This document shows positions 58,278 to 64,000 of a stretch of 64,000 bases of DNA, one piece after another. Positions within the stretch are counted from its first letter, which is position 1. Each line of letters opens with the position of its first letter. The notes under the pieces were generated by a model that saw only the letters and a program-made list of their open reading frames with translations, did no database searches and was not told the origin of the DNA. Made by a program: the position numbers and the translations under genes. Source of the stretch: Longimicrobiales bacterium (GTDB taxonomy: Bacteria > Gemmatimonadota > Gemmatimonadetes > Longimicrobiales > Gaopeijiaceae); NCBI GenBank assembly GCA_028822645.1, contig JAPKDG010000005.1:1-64000 (forward strand). The letters run 5' to 3'.

Positions 58278-58307
58278 TTGCTTAATAACAAAAATAAGGG
58301 GTAATTT
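58278..58307 (+). promoter_or_regulatory. Putative imuB promoter
   Basis: TTGCTT (58278-58283), 18-nt spacer, TAATTT (58302-58307). Transcription would begin at about 58314, right at the 16-bp direct-repeat box, so a bound repressor would block initiation. A 7-bp inverted repeat CCCTTAT/ATAAGGG (58263-58269 and 58294-58300) overlaps it. Confidence 0.4.
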
Positions 58308-58312
58308 CTATT

Positions 58313-58328
58313 TTCGGTTTTTATTCGG
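58313..58328 (+). promoter_or_regulatory. Shared 16-bp direct-repeat box (imuB copy), candidate SOS-type operator
   Basis: TTCGGTTTTTATTCGG: two TTCGG half-sites 11 bp apart, one helical turn. The exact reverse complement lies at the dnaE2 promoter (60955-60970). The box is 28 bp upstream of the imuB ATG and just after the proposed -10. A tandem half-site with 11-bp period resembles in architecture the GTTC-N7-GTTC LexA site of Alphaproteobacteria, though the half-site sequence differs. Confidence 0.65.
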
Positions 58329-58355
58329 TATGGATGAACTTCTCATGAATTCCCT

Positions 58356-59624
58356 ATGACTAAATGCTTTGAAAAAGGGCAAACGTTATGTATTTGGTTT
58401 CCGATGTTCGAGCTTGGATTAGAACTTATGCGTAAACCAGCTCTACAAAATATTCCTATTGCTCTCTTGAGTCCCAAGAGAATTAACAGGCGAACGGTAT
58501 GGCAATGTTCCAAGCAAGCACTAGGCATGGGAATATACCTAGACCAAGCTGTCTCCCAATCTTTTTCTTTCTGTCCAACTTTAATAGTGCTAGAACCTGA
58601 TCTTGATTACTACAATAGCGTGCAAACAAATGTCCTGAAGACCTTATCCCACATAGGTCCAGACGTAGAATATGCTGGACATGGACGATTCTACATTAAT
58701 GTAGATGGATTACAGAATTTTCATAAATCCCAACCCTGCCGAGTAAAAGAAAAAGTGCACATATGCTTGAACCAATTCCCCCATGCATTGGTGCGTTCCA
58801 TAAAAATTGGGTGGGCCAAGGGAAAATTTGCATCCTGGATAGCTGCGACAAAAGCTAATCCTGACCAACCAACTATCGTTGAAGACCAGAAATTAGCTTC
58901 ATTCTTGAAACCTTCTCCTGTCTCTCTCTTACCAATTGATAGATATATGCTTAGGAATCTCCAGCGACTAGGCATTCAAACTCTTGGCGATTTGACTCTT
59001 CTTTCAACTTCAGCTCTAGTCAGACAATTCGGGGAGGAAGGAAGAACAGCACGAATGTGGGCTACTGGAGAACAGATAGATCTTGTCCAACCCAATCATT
59101 CCCTTGAACATATCCGTCATTCGATAGACTTCCCTACACCAATTGGACATATAGAGATTCTTTGCAGGTCCCTAGGGAAACTTCTGGAAACCGCCCTAGA
59201 AGATCTTAAACACCGAGGCCAGGGTGTCCAAGGTGTCCGTATCACAGCTTCGTGGGAAGAAGGATCTTGGTCGTTGAATCATGTGCTGCGGAATCCCTCG
59301 ACATCCCATAAAGACATCTATCGTGCTATAACCAGTCAAATATTCCTCTCTCCACCTGCTTGTTCCATAGATAAGCTCATATTAGAGTTTTTCCAATTTT
59401 ATACTTTCGAGCCACAAGAACATTTCTTCAATCATACGAAAGCTCATCGGGGAACATCTCCCAACAAAGAAATGACAAAAGGAATGATTACACTTCCACT
59501 ACGGGAAGCTATAAAGGAAATGAAATTGAGAATGGGCTTTTCTCCTCTTTACCGTATCGTAGAGATTGATCCATTGTCACGTATTCCAGAACGACGACAT
59601 GCTCTATTGAATCTTGACATTTAA
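58356..59624 (+). CDS. imuB: ImuB-like Y-family polymerase homologue, catalytically inactive
   Basis: 422 residues. The N-terminal TLCIWFPMFELGLELMRKP is the ImuB opening; the DxD acid pair of Y-family polymerases is replaced by hydrophobic residues, and the usual SxDE motif is changed (GHGRFYINVDGL, about residues 109-120). A helix-hairpin-helix region (NLQRLGIQTLGDLTLLSTSALVRQFG) is near residue 205 and the tail ends with DPLSRIPERRHALL. ImuB is not a polymerase itself but bridges DnaE2 and the beta clamp during error-prone lesion bypass. No imuA lies next to it. There is no clear Shine-Dalgarno. Confidence 0.85.
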   Translation: MTKCFEKGQTLCIWFPMFELGLELMRKPALQNIPIALLSPKRINRRTVWQCSKQALGMGIYLDQAVSQSFSFCPTLIVLEPDLDYYNSVQTNVLKTLSHIGPDVEYAGHGRFYINVDGLQNFHKSQPCRVKEKVHICLNQFPHALVRSIKIGWAKGKFASWIAATKANPDQPTIVEDQKLASFLKPSPVSLLPIDRYMLRNLQRLGIQTLGDLTLLSTSALVRQFGEEGRTARMWATGEQIDLVQPNHSLEHIRHSIDFPTPIGHIEILCRSLGKLLETALEDLKHRGQGVQGVRITASWEEGSWSLNHVLRNPSTSHKDIYRAITSQIFLSPPACSIDKLILEFFQFYTFEPQEHFFNHTKAHRGTSPNKEMTKGMITLPLREAIKEMKLRMGFSPLYRIVEIDPLSRIPERRHALLNLDI

Positions 59625-59672
59625 ATCTTCCTACCCTGGCTACAAAAATCTTTGGAACACGAGGATATAATC

Positions 59673-59972
59673 ATGATCAATTCCCCAGATTCAAATGAAA
59701 AAAACAAATACTATAATCATAATATCCAGATACGTACCCTTGACCTTCCTCTCCCCATTAAAGTCGAGCTAGACCAGATTGGGCTACCTATATATTACTA
59801 CTCTAAAAATAGGAAACGCTTAAAAATTTCTATTATCCGAGACCGATGGAGAATAGACGACGAATGGTGGCGGAAACAGCTATCTAGGAAATATTTCACT
59901 ATTGTTTTAGAGAATGGATTAATAATAACCATATTTCAAGATCTACTATCACAAAAATGGTATAGTCAGTAG
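59673..59972 (+). CDS. DUF6504-like small protein of the mutasome locus
   Basis: About 99 residues. IIRDRWRIDDEWWRKQLSRKYF (about residues 53-74) followed by FTIVLENGLIITIFQDLLSQKWY is, from memory, the core of the DUF6504 family, which tends to sit beside ImuB-type genes. No catalytic motif is visible; the Trp/Arg-rich core could be an interaction surface. ATG at 59673 is chosen because GAGG lies 8 nt upstream; the frame runs back to a TTG at 59652. It follows imuB by 48 nt and is very likely co-transcribed. Confidence 0.7.
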   Translation: MINSPDSNEKNKYYNHNIQIRTLDLPLPIKVELDQIGLPIYYYSKNRKRLKISIIRDRWRIDDEWWRKQLSRKYFTIVLENGLIITIFQDLLSQKWYSQ

Positions 59973-60027
59973 ATCTTAGAACCCATTGATTCTCAAAATA
60001 TAATCTCAGTTCTTACTTCACTTATTC

Positions 60028-60855
60028 TCACTCGCTACCAATCAGCTTAGACCAACCTTGAGAATACAGGCCTGCAAAGCGTGGCAGATACCCAGGATAC
60101 TGAGATCCTATAGCTTTCAATTTGTTTCCATCCACTTCTACGATTGCCAATGGGTCAGTTCCTTCGAAAAGGATTTCACCGTCAGGCGCGACCGCCAGAG
60201 ATGGACCGCCAATGTCTACCCCAAACTCAGAAAACGGTCGGTTTACAGATATGAGATAAGCTTCAGACATAATAGCATTAGCCCTGAGAATTAGCTTCCA
60301 GCGTTTATACGTCTCACTAGATGTGGCGCGTGGCACCAAAAGTAACTCTGCACCTTGTGCACGAAGAATCTGAGCTCCTTGTGGGCGCTGGATATCAGAA
60401 CAAATCTGGATACCTATAGTAACCTCAGACATCGGAATAACCGTTGGAGGATCAGTTCCGGGTATATAATGTGAGGTTTCCCAATAACCTTTTTCTTCAG
60501 GAAGATGAATCTTACGATATTGGCCTATCAATCGGCCATTACGATCATAAAAAAGAGCTGTATTATACCTTTTGCCTGTTTTCGAATCAGTGACAATCGC
60601 CCCTCCTAGTAAAGCAATACCTGCTTCTGTGGCCACTCTAGAGAGTATTTGCTGACGTGGCCCACCCGAAGGTTCTGCGTCTTCTTCAATGGATTCACGA
60701 GTAGCTGGAGACCAAGGATTAAGAGGAAGTTCCGGAAGGACAGCCAAGGTTGCACCTAAATCCTTGGCTTCCAGTAAATAATCTCTGAGACGCAAATGAT
60801 CTAAATCCTCTAAAAATACATCTGTTAACAGAGCTACCAAAATACGATCGTCCAT
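60028..60855 (-). CDS. Carbon-nitrogen hydrolase (nitrilase superfamily)
   Basis: About 275 residues. The catalytic triad is readable: Glu in AVLPELPLNPW, Lys in GQYRKIHLPEEKGYWE, and Cys in IGIQICSDIQRPQGAQIL. These enzymes hydrolyse nitriles, amides or N-carbamoyl compounds; the substrate cannot be told. ATG at 60855 has GAGGA 7 nt upstream. It lies between the DUF6504-like gene and dnaE2 on the opposite strand, so it splits the mutasome, and its promoter region abuts the dnaE2 operator. Confidence 0.88.
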   Translation of the reverse strand: MDDRILVALLTDVFLEDLDHLRLRDYLLEAKDLGATLAVLPELPLNPWSPATRESIEEDAEPSGGPRQQILSRVATEAGIALLGGAIVTDSKTGKRYNTALFYDRNGRLIGQYRKIHLPEEKGYWETSHYIPGTDPPTVIPMSEVTIGIQICSDIQRPQGAQILRAQGAELLLVPRATSSETYKRWKLILRANAIMSEAYLISVNRPFSEFGVDIGGPSLAVAPDGEILFEGTDPLAIVEVDGNKLKAIGSQYPGYLPRFAGLYSQGWSKLIGSE

Positions 60856-60916
60856 CAATCTTTCCTCTTTCCACAATCTGTATCCTCACCAATACAGAAA
60901 AAGATATTTATTTTCA

Positions 60917-60945
60917 TTGCCCACAACAACCAGGGAAACTATACT
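60917..60945 (+). promoter_or_regulatory. Putative dnaE2 promoter
   Basis: TTGCCC (60917-60922), 17-nt spacer, TATACT (60940-60945). Transcription would start near 60952, only about 24 nt before the ATG. The 16-bp box follows immediately. The match to sigma-70 consensus is good. Confidence 0.55.
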
Positions 60946-60954
60946 TCCTTTTAC

Positions 60955-60971
60955 CCGAATAAAAACCGAAT
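60955..60971 (+). promoter_or_regulatory. Shared direct-repeat box (dnaE2 copy), candidate SOS-type operator
   Basis: CCGAATAAAAACCGAAT: two CCGAAT half-sites 11 bp apart. Its first 16 bases are the exact reverse complement of the imuB box at 58313-58328. It lies 10 bp after the proposed -10 and ends 4 bp before the ATG, so a bound protein would block transcription start. The location leaves no room for a Shine-Dalgarno, hence a short-leader or weakly translated message is likely. Confidence 0.65.
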
Positions 60972-60975
60972 ACTT

Positions 60976-63900
60976 ATGCTTAAACATTCTCCTTACATTG
61001 AATTACACTGCCACTCAGGATTTTCATTCTTGGATGGAAGTTCACATCCCCAAGAATTAATACTTGAAGCTTTAAAGATAGGATATCCTGCTATAGCCCT
61101 AACTGATCACAATGGATTATACGGATCTATGGAATTCGCACACGAAGCACATAAAAATGGAATCCAAGCGATCACTGGATCCGAGGTTACAATCTCGCTA
61201 GACATAAGCGATGTCCCCAAAAAACTAAGTTCATTGACCATGCCCGATGAAAAAAATAGCGCTTTATTTAAGGAATGTCATTTAACTATCCTGGCTGAGA
61301 ATGCCGTGGGCTATTCCAATCTCTGCAAACTTATAAGTGAAGCACATCTTAAAAAAAATTCCCCCCATCCCTACGTTATGCTTTCTTCGTTACTAACTCA
61401 AACAGAAGGGCTCATCATACTCACTGGTTGCCATAAAGGACCTCTTTCAATGGCGCTCGAAGACAGTTTTCATACCGCAGAAATTCTCATCCGAAAGTTT
61501 AAGAATTCCTTGGATCCAGGACAATTATTTATTGAAATTCAAGATAATGAAAGGATAGGAGACAAGTATCGAAATAAACGCCTTGGATGCCTCGCAGATC
61601 GCTTCGACATCCCCTTGGTTGCCACCGGAAACGTTCACTACCATCACTCAAGCCGAAGCCGAATCCAAGATGTTTTGGTGTCCATTAGAAATCGAACTAC
61701 CCTAGACGGATCCCACAGATGGAGACGCCCAAACACCCAATTTTATCTTGCTTCTTCAGAAGAGATGTTTCATCGTTTCCAAAGCCGACCCGACGCCTTG
61801 AAACAAACTCTAAAAATCGCAGAAAAATGCGCGAATTTTGATCTTACTCAAGACCTCGGATATACCTTCCCAAATTTTCATAAAAACAGTCAAAAGAAAG
61901 CTCTAGAACTACTCAAATCCAAATGCCTGTCACAACTGTACAAATATTACGAAGGATCACCACTAGAAAATGAAGCTCGCCAACGTCTCTGCCAAGAACT
62001 TTCCCTCGTAGACACCCACAACCTAGCAGGTTTTTTTCTCATCTATAGTGAAATCATAGAACTCGCTGAAGAAGTTTCTTCGAAACTGCGGATAGGCGTC
62101 CCGAGGAATCAGAGTGGACTCTCTCCAGGTAGAGGGAGAGGATCCTCGGTATCTTCCATCATTTGCTATCTCGTCGGACTTTCCCATATAGATCCTGTTA
62201 AATCGAACCTATTCCTTGGTCGTTTTCTCAACGAGAACATGCAGACCATACCAGATATCGATCTCGATTTTCCAAGAGAAATCAGACAAGAACTAATGCT
62301 GCAGATCTCCAAAAAATACGGGAATGAACACGCTGCTCTCGTATGCTCATTCTCTACATACCGAATACGCTCTGCTATCCGTGAAATCGGAAAAGTACTA
62401 GGTGTTCCAATAGAAATATTAACCAAGATATCCAAATCAACAGAGTACCATTCAGAAAAATCTCTTCCAGAAATCCTCAAACCCATCTCAGAATTCTCCC
62501 TAAAAACTACATCCCCATTGTGGAAACATTTCTATCAGCTTGTCAAAGACATCCAAGGCCTTCCTCGCCACATTTCTCAACATGTCGGTGGAATGATAAT
62601 TTCGAGTCGTCCCCTAACAGAAATGGTCCCCCTAGAGCCAAGTATCCGAGGAGATCGAATCCTTTGTCAGTGGGATAAAGATTCCTGCAATGACGCTGGA
62701 TTCATAAAAATAGATTTCCTCTCTTTAGGCATGCTTTCTCTCGTAGATGAAACGATCGATTTAATTTCCACTCGACATTCTTATGTTCCTAATCTCTCTC
62801 GCATTAATTTCGAAGACCAAGAAATTTATGATCAAATTTGCTCAGGTGAAACGATCGGAACATTTCAGTTAGAGAGTCGAGCGCAAATCCAGATGGGGCG
62901 TCGCATACAACCCCGCGACCTTAATGATTTAGCCATTCAAATCGCCATTGTTCGCCCAGGCCCCATTTTAGGTGGCGCAATTAGCATGTATATACGCAGA
63001 AGAGAGCTCTCACGAAACAACCCCGATTATGTCATTCAATACGAACATCCCCTCTTAGAAGAAGTCTTGGGAGAAACATTGGGTGTAATTGTTTTTCAAG
63101 ATCAAGTCTTACAAATTTGTCGATATTTAGCGGGTTTCTCTGATGGAGAAGCTGACGGTCTGCGAAGATCCCTGAGTCGGAAGCGTTCCAAACAATCTAT
63201 AGAATTATATTGGAAGCCATTTCGAAACGGCTGTAGATCACAGAACATTGATGAATCTATCGCTAAAAAAATATTCCAACAAATAATAGCATTTAGCGGC
63301 TTCGGATTCCCCAAATCTCATGCCGTCGCATTTTGCTTACTAGCATACCAATCGGTTTGGCTTCGTCACTACTATAGCACTGAATACTATGTTGCCCTCT
63401 TCAACAATCAACCCATGGGATTCTACTCACTAGATGCTCTAAGTAGAGATGCACAGCGCCAGGGAATACGAATCCTTCTGCCAGATATTAATCTCAGTCA
63501 AGCCAAGTGTGTCCCAGAAAATTCAGAATTGAGAATCGGCCTAGGACTAGTAAAAGGATGGGGGATGAAAACTGCAATAGCGGTAATAATAGAAAGACAA
63601 AGACATGGATTATTCAGATCTTTGTCGGAATTCCTTCAAAGGATGCCTCGATCCTTGAATAGAGATATGCTCGAAAATCTCATTTTAGTTGGAGGATTTA
63701 AGGGTTTTGGATTGACTCGCAGAGAAATTTTATGGCAGTTGGGATTGTGGATAGGCCCTAGAGAAAGTCTGAGGCCTGCGACAGTGAAGAGGAAGCAGAT
63801 TCAAACCGAACTGAGACTGGAAGATCCTAATACAGTAATCACATTCCCAGATCTCACAGCTACTGAACAAATGGTTATGGAATATCGCATGCTTCATTTC

Positions 63901-64000
63901 TCTGTGGGTTTCCACCCATTATCTCTTCTCCGTAAAGGATTAGATAGTAAAATAATTTTTAGTAACCGTCTATCTGAACTGTCCAACCATGATCCTGTAA
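60976..64000 (+). CDS. dnaE2: Error-prone DNA polymerase III alpha subunit DnaE2 (3' end outside window)
   Basis: The frame is open for 1008 codons to the window edge, close to the usual DnaE2 length of about 1050. The PHP domain starts IELHCHSGFSFLDGSSHP with HxH and TDH metal residues kept. The palm has GRGRGSSVSS near residue 388, PDIDLDFPRE with the two catalytic Asp at 429 and 431, and IKIDFLSLGML with Asp580. The C-terminal SVGFHPLSLL (near residue 976) matches DnaE2. It copies past lesions with the help of ImuB. The start is the ATG at 60976 directly after the 16-bp box. Confidence 0.93.
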   Translation, partial: MLKHSPYIELHCHSGFSFLDGSSHPQELILEALKIGYPAIALTDHNGLYGSMEFAHEAHKNGIQAITGSEVTISLDISDVPKKLSSLTMPDEKNSALFKECHLTILAENAVGYSNLCKLISEAHLKKNSPHPYVMLSSLLTQTEGLIILTGCHKGPLSMALEDSFHTAEILIRKFKNSLDPGQLFIEIQDNERIGDKYRNKRLGCLADRFDIPLVATGNVHYHHSSRSRIQDVLVSIRNRTTLDGSHRWRRPNTQFYLASSEEMFHRFQSRPDALKQTLKIAEKCANFDLTQDLGYTFPNFHKNSQKKALELLKSKCLSQLYKYYEGSPLENEARQRLCQELSLVDTHNLAGFFLIYSEIIELAEEVSSKLRIGVPRNQSGLSPGRGRGSSVSSIICYLVGLSHIDPVKSNLFLGRFLNENMQTIPDIDLDFPREIRQELMLQISKKYGNEHAALVCSFSTYRIRSAIREIGKVLGVPIEILTKISKSTEYHSEKSLPEILKPISEFSLKTTSPLWKHFYQLVKDIQGLPRHISQHVGGMIISSRPLTEMVPLEPSIRGDRILCQWDKDSCNDAGFIKIDFLSLGMLSLVDETIDLISTRHSYVPNLSRINFEDQEIYDQICSGETIGTFQLESRAQIQMGRRIQPRDLNDLAIQIAIVRPGPILGGAISMYIRRRELSRNNPDYVIQYEHPLLEEVLGETLGVIVFQDQVLQICRYLAGFSDGEADGLRRSLSRKRSKQSIELYWKPFRNGCRSQNIDESIAKKIFQQIIAFSGFGFPKSHAVAFCLLAYQSVWLRHYYSTEYYVALFNNQPMGFYSLDALSRDAQRQGIRILLPDINLSQAKCVPENSELRIGLGLVKGWGMKTAIAVIIERQRHGLFRSLSEFLQRMPRSLNRDMLENLILVGGFKGFGLTRREILWQLGLWIGPRESLRPATVKRKQIQTELRLEDPNTVITFPDLTATEQMVMEYRMLHFSVGFHPLSLLRKGLDSKIIFSNRLSELSNHDPV

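Follow-up and report, generated by a model that had tools for sequence, protein, structure and literature searches.

Why do two mutagenesis genes that are separated by a gene on the opposite strand carry the same 16-bp sequence in their promoters, and which protein would read it? The question arises from a window of 64,000 nucleotides (the whole stretch of DNA analysed) from the MAG of a Longimicrobiales bacterium of the phylum Gemmatimonadota. In a search of the whole window, TTCGGTTTTTATTCGG occurred exactly at 58313-58328 (+) and at 60955-60970 (-), and the next best match had three mismatches. Both copies are direct repeats of TTCGG with an 11-bp period, written here as TTCGG-N6-TTCGG and called the box.

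Two copies of the box before imuB and dnaE2

The features of the locus are the following.

58278..58283 (+): putative -35 (TTGCTT) of the imuB promoter, read from the sequence
58302..58307 (+): putative -10 (TAATTT) of the imuB promoter; -35, -10 and box in the same order as in the lexA promoters of relatives
58313..58328 (+): predicted LexA box TTCGG-N6-TTCGG of imuB; a box lies upstream in 25/25 imuB orthologues
58356..59624 (+): imuB, Y-family polymerase-like (IMS, PF00817), by domain match
59652..59972 (+): small ORF directly 3' of imuB, without a family match
60028..60876 (-): carbon-nitrogen hydrolase (PF00795), between imuB and dnaE2 and divergent from dnaE2
60917..60922 (+): putative -35 (TTGCCC) of the dnaE2 promoter, read from the sequence
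60940..60945 (+): putative -10 (TATACT) of the dnaE2 promoter, read from the sequence
60955..60970 (-): predicted LexA box TTCGG-N6-TTCGG of dnaE2; a box lies upstream in 24/25 orthologues, in either orientation
60976..63999 (+), running past the window: dnaE2, error-prone C-family DNA polymerase, by domain match

The imuB promoter reads TTGCTT-N18-TAATTT, with 5 bp to the box and then 27 bp to the ATG at 58356. In the dnaE2 promoter, TTGCCC-N17-TATACT is followed by 9 bp to the box and 5 bp to the ATG at 60976. The box has the same orientation as imuB and the opposite orientation to dnaE2. The nearest NCBIfam models of imuB are those of DNA polymerase IV, with scores under their cut-offs. The reading frame of dnaE2 is cut by the window end, and it scores 792.6 bits with NF004225, under the cut-off of 939. 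The small ORF at 59652-59972 (about 95-106 aa) had no match in Pfam or NCBIfam; it probably shares the imuB transcript and possibly encodes an accessory protein of the mutasome.

The original prediction had described an identical, inverted 16-mer with TTCGG half-sites at an 11-bp period, and each of these elements is present exactly. It had also placed the copies just past a -10 and before SOS-mutagenesis genes, in two units split by an opposing gene. This agrees with the -10-like hexamers 5 and 9 bp away, with the Y-family and C-family domains and with the hydrolase gene on the other strand. Its statement that such sharing is unlikely by chance is in line with a rough estimate of 3.5e-5 for an exact 16-mer common to one pair of 150-bp promoters.

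The box upstream of lexA, recA and further genes

Genome-wide statements on the source genome come from pattern searches of its assembly (2.04 Mb, 99 contigs). Seven exact copies of TTCGG-N6-TTCGG were found, four upstream of genes (lexA, imuB, dnaE2 and mraZ) and three intragenic. The latter (C4:7491, C22:96582 and C67:33425) were rejected as operators and ascribed to chance because all lie inside genes, and a C3 site with two mismatches, TTCGGTTTTTATCTGG, was left out because its second half-site is missing. The lexA box, TTCGGTTCTTGTTCGG, is separated by 28 bp from the ATG of lexA, the sole match to PF01726 (LexA DNA-binding domain) in this genome. A box one letter off the pattern, TTCGCTTTCTGTTCGG, lies 50 bp before the ATG of recA. 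Given how densely such sites occur in the genome, the probability that three named SOS genes would by chance have one within 150 bp is about 1e-10. Promoters of the source genome have retained a single box each. With one mismatch allowed, the motif occurred 114 times versus 139 for a backward control; the loose motif is not enriched and the regulon of this genome is therefore small. A scan before lexA and recA, as the original prediction had proposed, thus finds a box at both (at recA with one mismatch). Random occurrence across the genome, which would speak against an operator, does not describe the exact motif, with four of seven copies upstream of genes, but the one-mismatch motif does not rise above background.

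Across Gemmatimonadota, the exact spaced repeat was present at most 150 bp upstream of lexA in 80/80 named loci of the Gemmatimonadota type, whereas first-order Markov resampling of the upstream regions gives a chance expectation of 0.19/80. These loci hold 157 boxes, all oriented as lexA. N6 is the sole universal spacing, and inverted TTCGG/CCGAA pairs were seen in at most 1/80 lexA loci at any spacing. Most lexA promoters carry two boxes, one filling the 17-bp -35/-10 spacer and the other after the -10. In 72 of the 77 two-box loci the first box sits exactly between TTGnnn and TAnnnT; the second begins 24-29 bp after the first, just past the -10. The base before the second TTC varies among the 157 boxes (A 34, C 51, G 59, T 13). 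TTCGG boxes persist in other families of the class, with a single one in family f8. The outgroup family f10 is the most distant of those searched within the phylum; its lexA promoters carry TTCGC-N6-TTCGC in the same layout in 5/5 cases, for example TTGACT-TTCGCTTTTGTTTCGCC-TATAAT. Three MAG records titled Gammaproteobacteria (L080, L082 and L093) encode a LexA of the Gemmatimonadota type with TTCGG boxes; probably these records are mistitled or come from mixed bins.

The upstream regions of imuB and dnaE2 orthologues, whose alignment had been proposed at the outset, carry the box in 25/25 and 24/25 loci, respectively, at dnaE2 in either orientation. At recA, 27/28 relatives have a box of the form TTCG[C/T]-N6-TTCGG. 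The fifth letter of its first half-site is always C or T and never G (L206-L235), and such a box is possibly weaker, which would set recA induction apart from that of lexA. The distance between box and gene varies at imuB, dnaE2 and recA. In the family of the source genome, imuB and dnaE2 are separate units with a box each, and several relatives have roughly 10 kb or more between the two. In other families, classic imuA-imuB-dnaE2 cassettes have the box at their start in most loci examined. The split and the operon arrangement therefore appear to be under one operator, as judged from the position of the box.

In the complete relative G006, a degenerate pattern, TTCGBNNNNYNTTCGG, gave 30 sites, and its backward control gave 6. 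In the same-genus genome G002 the pattern gave eight sites, five of them before mraZ, lexA, dnaE2, imuB and recA. The uvrA gene of G006 has a box 4 bp before its ATG; uvrA and imuA had also been named as places to look, and among relatives the box was found at this uvrA and at most of the imuA cassettes examined. Further boxes in G006 precede the genes for the large subunit of ribonucleotide reductase, two DinB-superfamily proteins, a WYL regulator and a DUF2461 protein. Another precedes the gene of a TIGR03916 radical-SAM repair protein; the SOS regulons of Gram-positive bacteria and of Balneolaeota likewise include a radical-SAM protein (PMC7739468). A gene for a CHAT-domain (caspase-like) protein in G006 (L301:1513-2568) has a box some 26 bp upstream of its start, and its product is possibly a damage-induced protease.

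The mraZ gene, which heads a cluster for division and cell wall synthesis, has the box in 8/30 loci, including all three of the source genus; five more genera of the family have it as well. Here the box stands some 100 bp ahead of the gene, upstream of the apparent promoter (L003:1-300, i.e. G000:C93; L236-L249). SOS control of cell division through this box is possible; in other work, B. subtilis LexA was shown to bind at an mraZ promoter (PMC3998124). That the box is a site for MraZ itself was rejected, since most of the mraZ genes searched lack it and lexA, imuB and recA have it.

LexA and other candidate readers of the box

The LexA of the source genome scores 212.8 bits with TIGR00498 (cut-off 110.95) and contains both PF01726 and PF00717. 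Its VPAG (the Ala-Gly cleavage site), GQSM (Ser) and ATVKK (Lys) segments align with those of solved LexAs, and RecA-stimulated self-cleavage is therefore expected. Because the box precedes lexA, recA, imuB and dnaE2 in the source genome and its relatives, TTCGG-N6-TTCGG is very probably the LexA operator (SOS box) of Gemmatimonadota. This predicted operator would be an asymmetric direct repeat with an 11-bp period and the half-site TTCGG. Position, conservation, spacing, promoter overlap and co-occurrence with SOS core genes are read directly from the loci above; from them we infer that LexA binds the box, represses transcription there and yields to DNA damage. The original prediction had left the choice between a LexA box of this lineage and a site read by an unknown damage regulator. 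The boxes before lexA, recA, imuB and dnaE2 strongly support the first of these, and the second is not needed.

Another damage regulator, either an activator of the WYL/PafBC type or a second LexA-like protein, might nevertheless bind the box and control these genes, lexA included. In G006 the WYL-domain regulator gene itself has a box, and a LexA-like paralogue with the helix region IKSTKTVSEHL (L304-L323) occurs in most relatives searched. However, no TTCGG box was found before this paralogue (0/20 promoters), and its use of the same box was rejected on this count. The paralogue was not detectable in the source genome, which nevertheless keeps the box. Moreover, a site in the -35/-10 spacer and after the -10 of lexA is placed as for a repressor rather than an activator, and the target genes are those of the classical LexA regulon. 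We regard a different regulator as improbable. In one relative (L314, G033:C137), a different LexA-like gene lies directly upstream of imuB and dnaE2, in a cassette of the lexA2-imuB-dnaE2 type without a TTCGG box.

Still less credible, and very unlikely in our judgement, is that the box is a core-promoter element recognized by a sigma or alternative sigma factor. Its fixed place with respect to the -35 and -10 of lexA would fit such a role, but ordinary -35 and -10 hexamers are present besides it. The box also tolerates either orientation at dnaE2 and variable distances at imuB, dnaE2 and recA, and only four promoters of a 2 Mb genome contain an exact copy. Chance or a recent duplication of the 16-mer between two promoters of one genome, to which the identity of copies just 2.6 kb apart might point, is refuted for practical purposes by its retention in orthologues of both genes and at lexA and recA phylum-wide, with varying spacer letters.

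With LexA as the reader of the box, a LexA dimer would occupy two half-sites of like orientation, spaced by one turn of the helix. From a position over the promoter, either in the -35/-10 spacer or immediately past the -10, LexA would block RNA polymerase. Upon DNA damage, RecA filaments would form and stimulate the self-cleavage of LexA, which would derepress lexA, recA and the split mutasome genes imuB and dnaE2. In the source genome, mraZ would probably be derepressed too.

Relation to known LexA sites

In a 2021 count, 17 LexA motifs were known (PMC8565304). No LexA motif of Gemmatimonadota was found in the open-access literature, most subscription papers lying outside the search, and the box is likely, though not certain, to be new. 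It would add a further direct-repeat LexA site, with a layout (one box in the -35/-10 spacer and one after the -10) kept across most of the phylum. A predicted operator would also make the SOS regulons of Gemmatimonadota MAGs readable by computer, in a large and mostly uncultured phylum of soil and sea.

The LexA box of Alphaproteobacteria is the direct repeat GTTC-N7-GTTC (PMC8565304). The Gemmatimonadota box resembles it in being a direct repeat with an 11-bp period and a TTC core. It differs in its half-site, TTCGG (TTCGC in f10), and in the variable base before TTC; the imuB and dnaE2 boxes have ATTC, not GTTC. The early observation that the box resembles this site and yet is distinct from it is therefore upheld, with the same period and no fixed base before TTC. 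Outside Proteobacteria, a direct repeat, TTACACATATTTTWTACATA, has been demonstrated by EMSA as the LexA box of Balneolaeota (PMC7739468). The two sites have the direct repeat and their non-proteobacterial origin in common, but the Balneolaeota half-sites, TACACATA and TACATA, are unrelated to TTCGG. With regard to the genes controlled, the source genome shares ImuB and DnaE2 with the imuA-imuB-dnaE2 mutagenesis cassette, in which they are damage-inducible, and other Gemmatimonadota families have classic operons with the box. Its own family, in contrast, has imuB and dnaE2 split, and in the source genome a search with RecA protein detected no imuA.

In Bacillus, LexA binds the palindrome CGAAC-N4-GTTCG, and sites related to it are visible upstream of Bacillus lexA. 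In a plasmid collection, the LexAs nearest to that of the source genome come from Gram-positive bacteria, with up to 44% identity. The Gemmatimonadota half-site likewise contains TTCG, and the recognition-helix stretch TVHxHL is common to both LexA groups. Unlike in the Gram-positive inverted repeat, the half-sites point the same way at Gemmatimonadota lexA promoters. The LexA of f10 has TVHKHL and those of the other families TVHEHL; that TVHEHL reads TTCGG and TVHKHL reads TTCGC is only a hypothesis, because it reflects a single evolutionary contrast. A history that we consider plausible, though not quite probable, is that Gemmatimonadota LexA kept a Gram-positive-like helix and the TTCG half-site while the site changed from inverted to direct, and that a step between TVHEHL/TTCGG and TVHKHL/TTCGC followed within the phylum. 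If so, a switch in half-site orientation and a one-residue, one-base change could be traced in one protein family, and the switch would be independent of the alphaproteobacterial and Balneolaeota direct repeats. Because it keeps a Gram-positive-like recognition helix, the LexA of Gemmatimonadota would offer a test case for the change from palindromic to direct-repeat DNA by one repressor.
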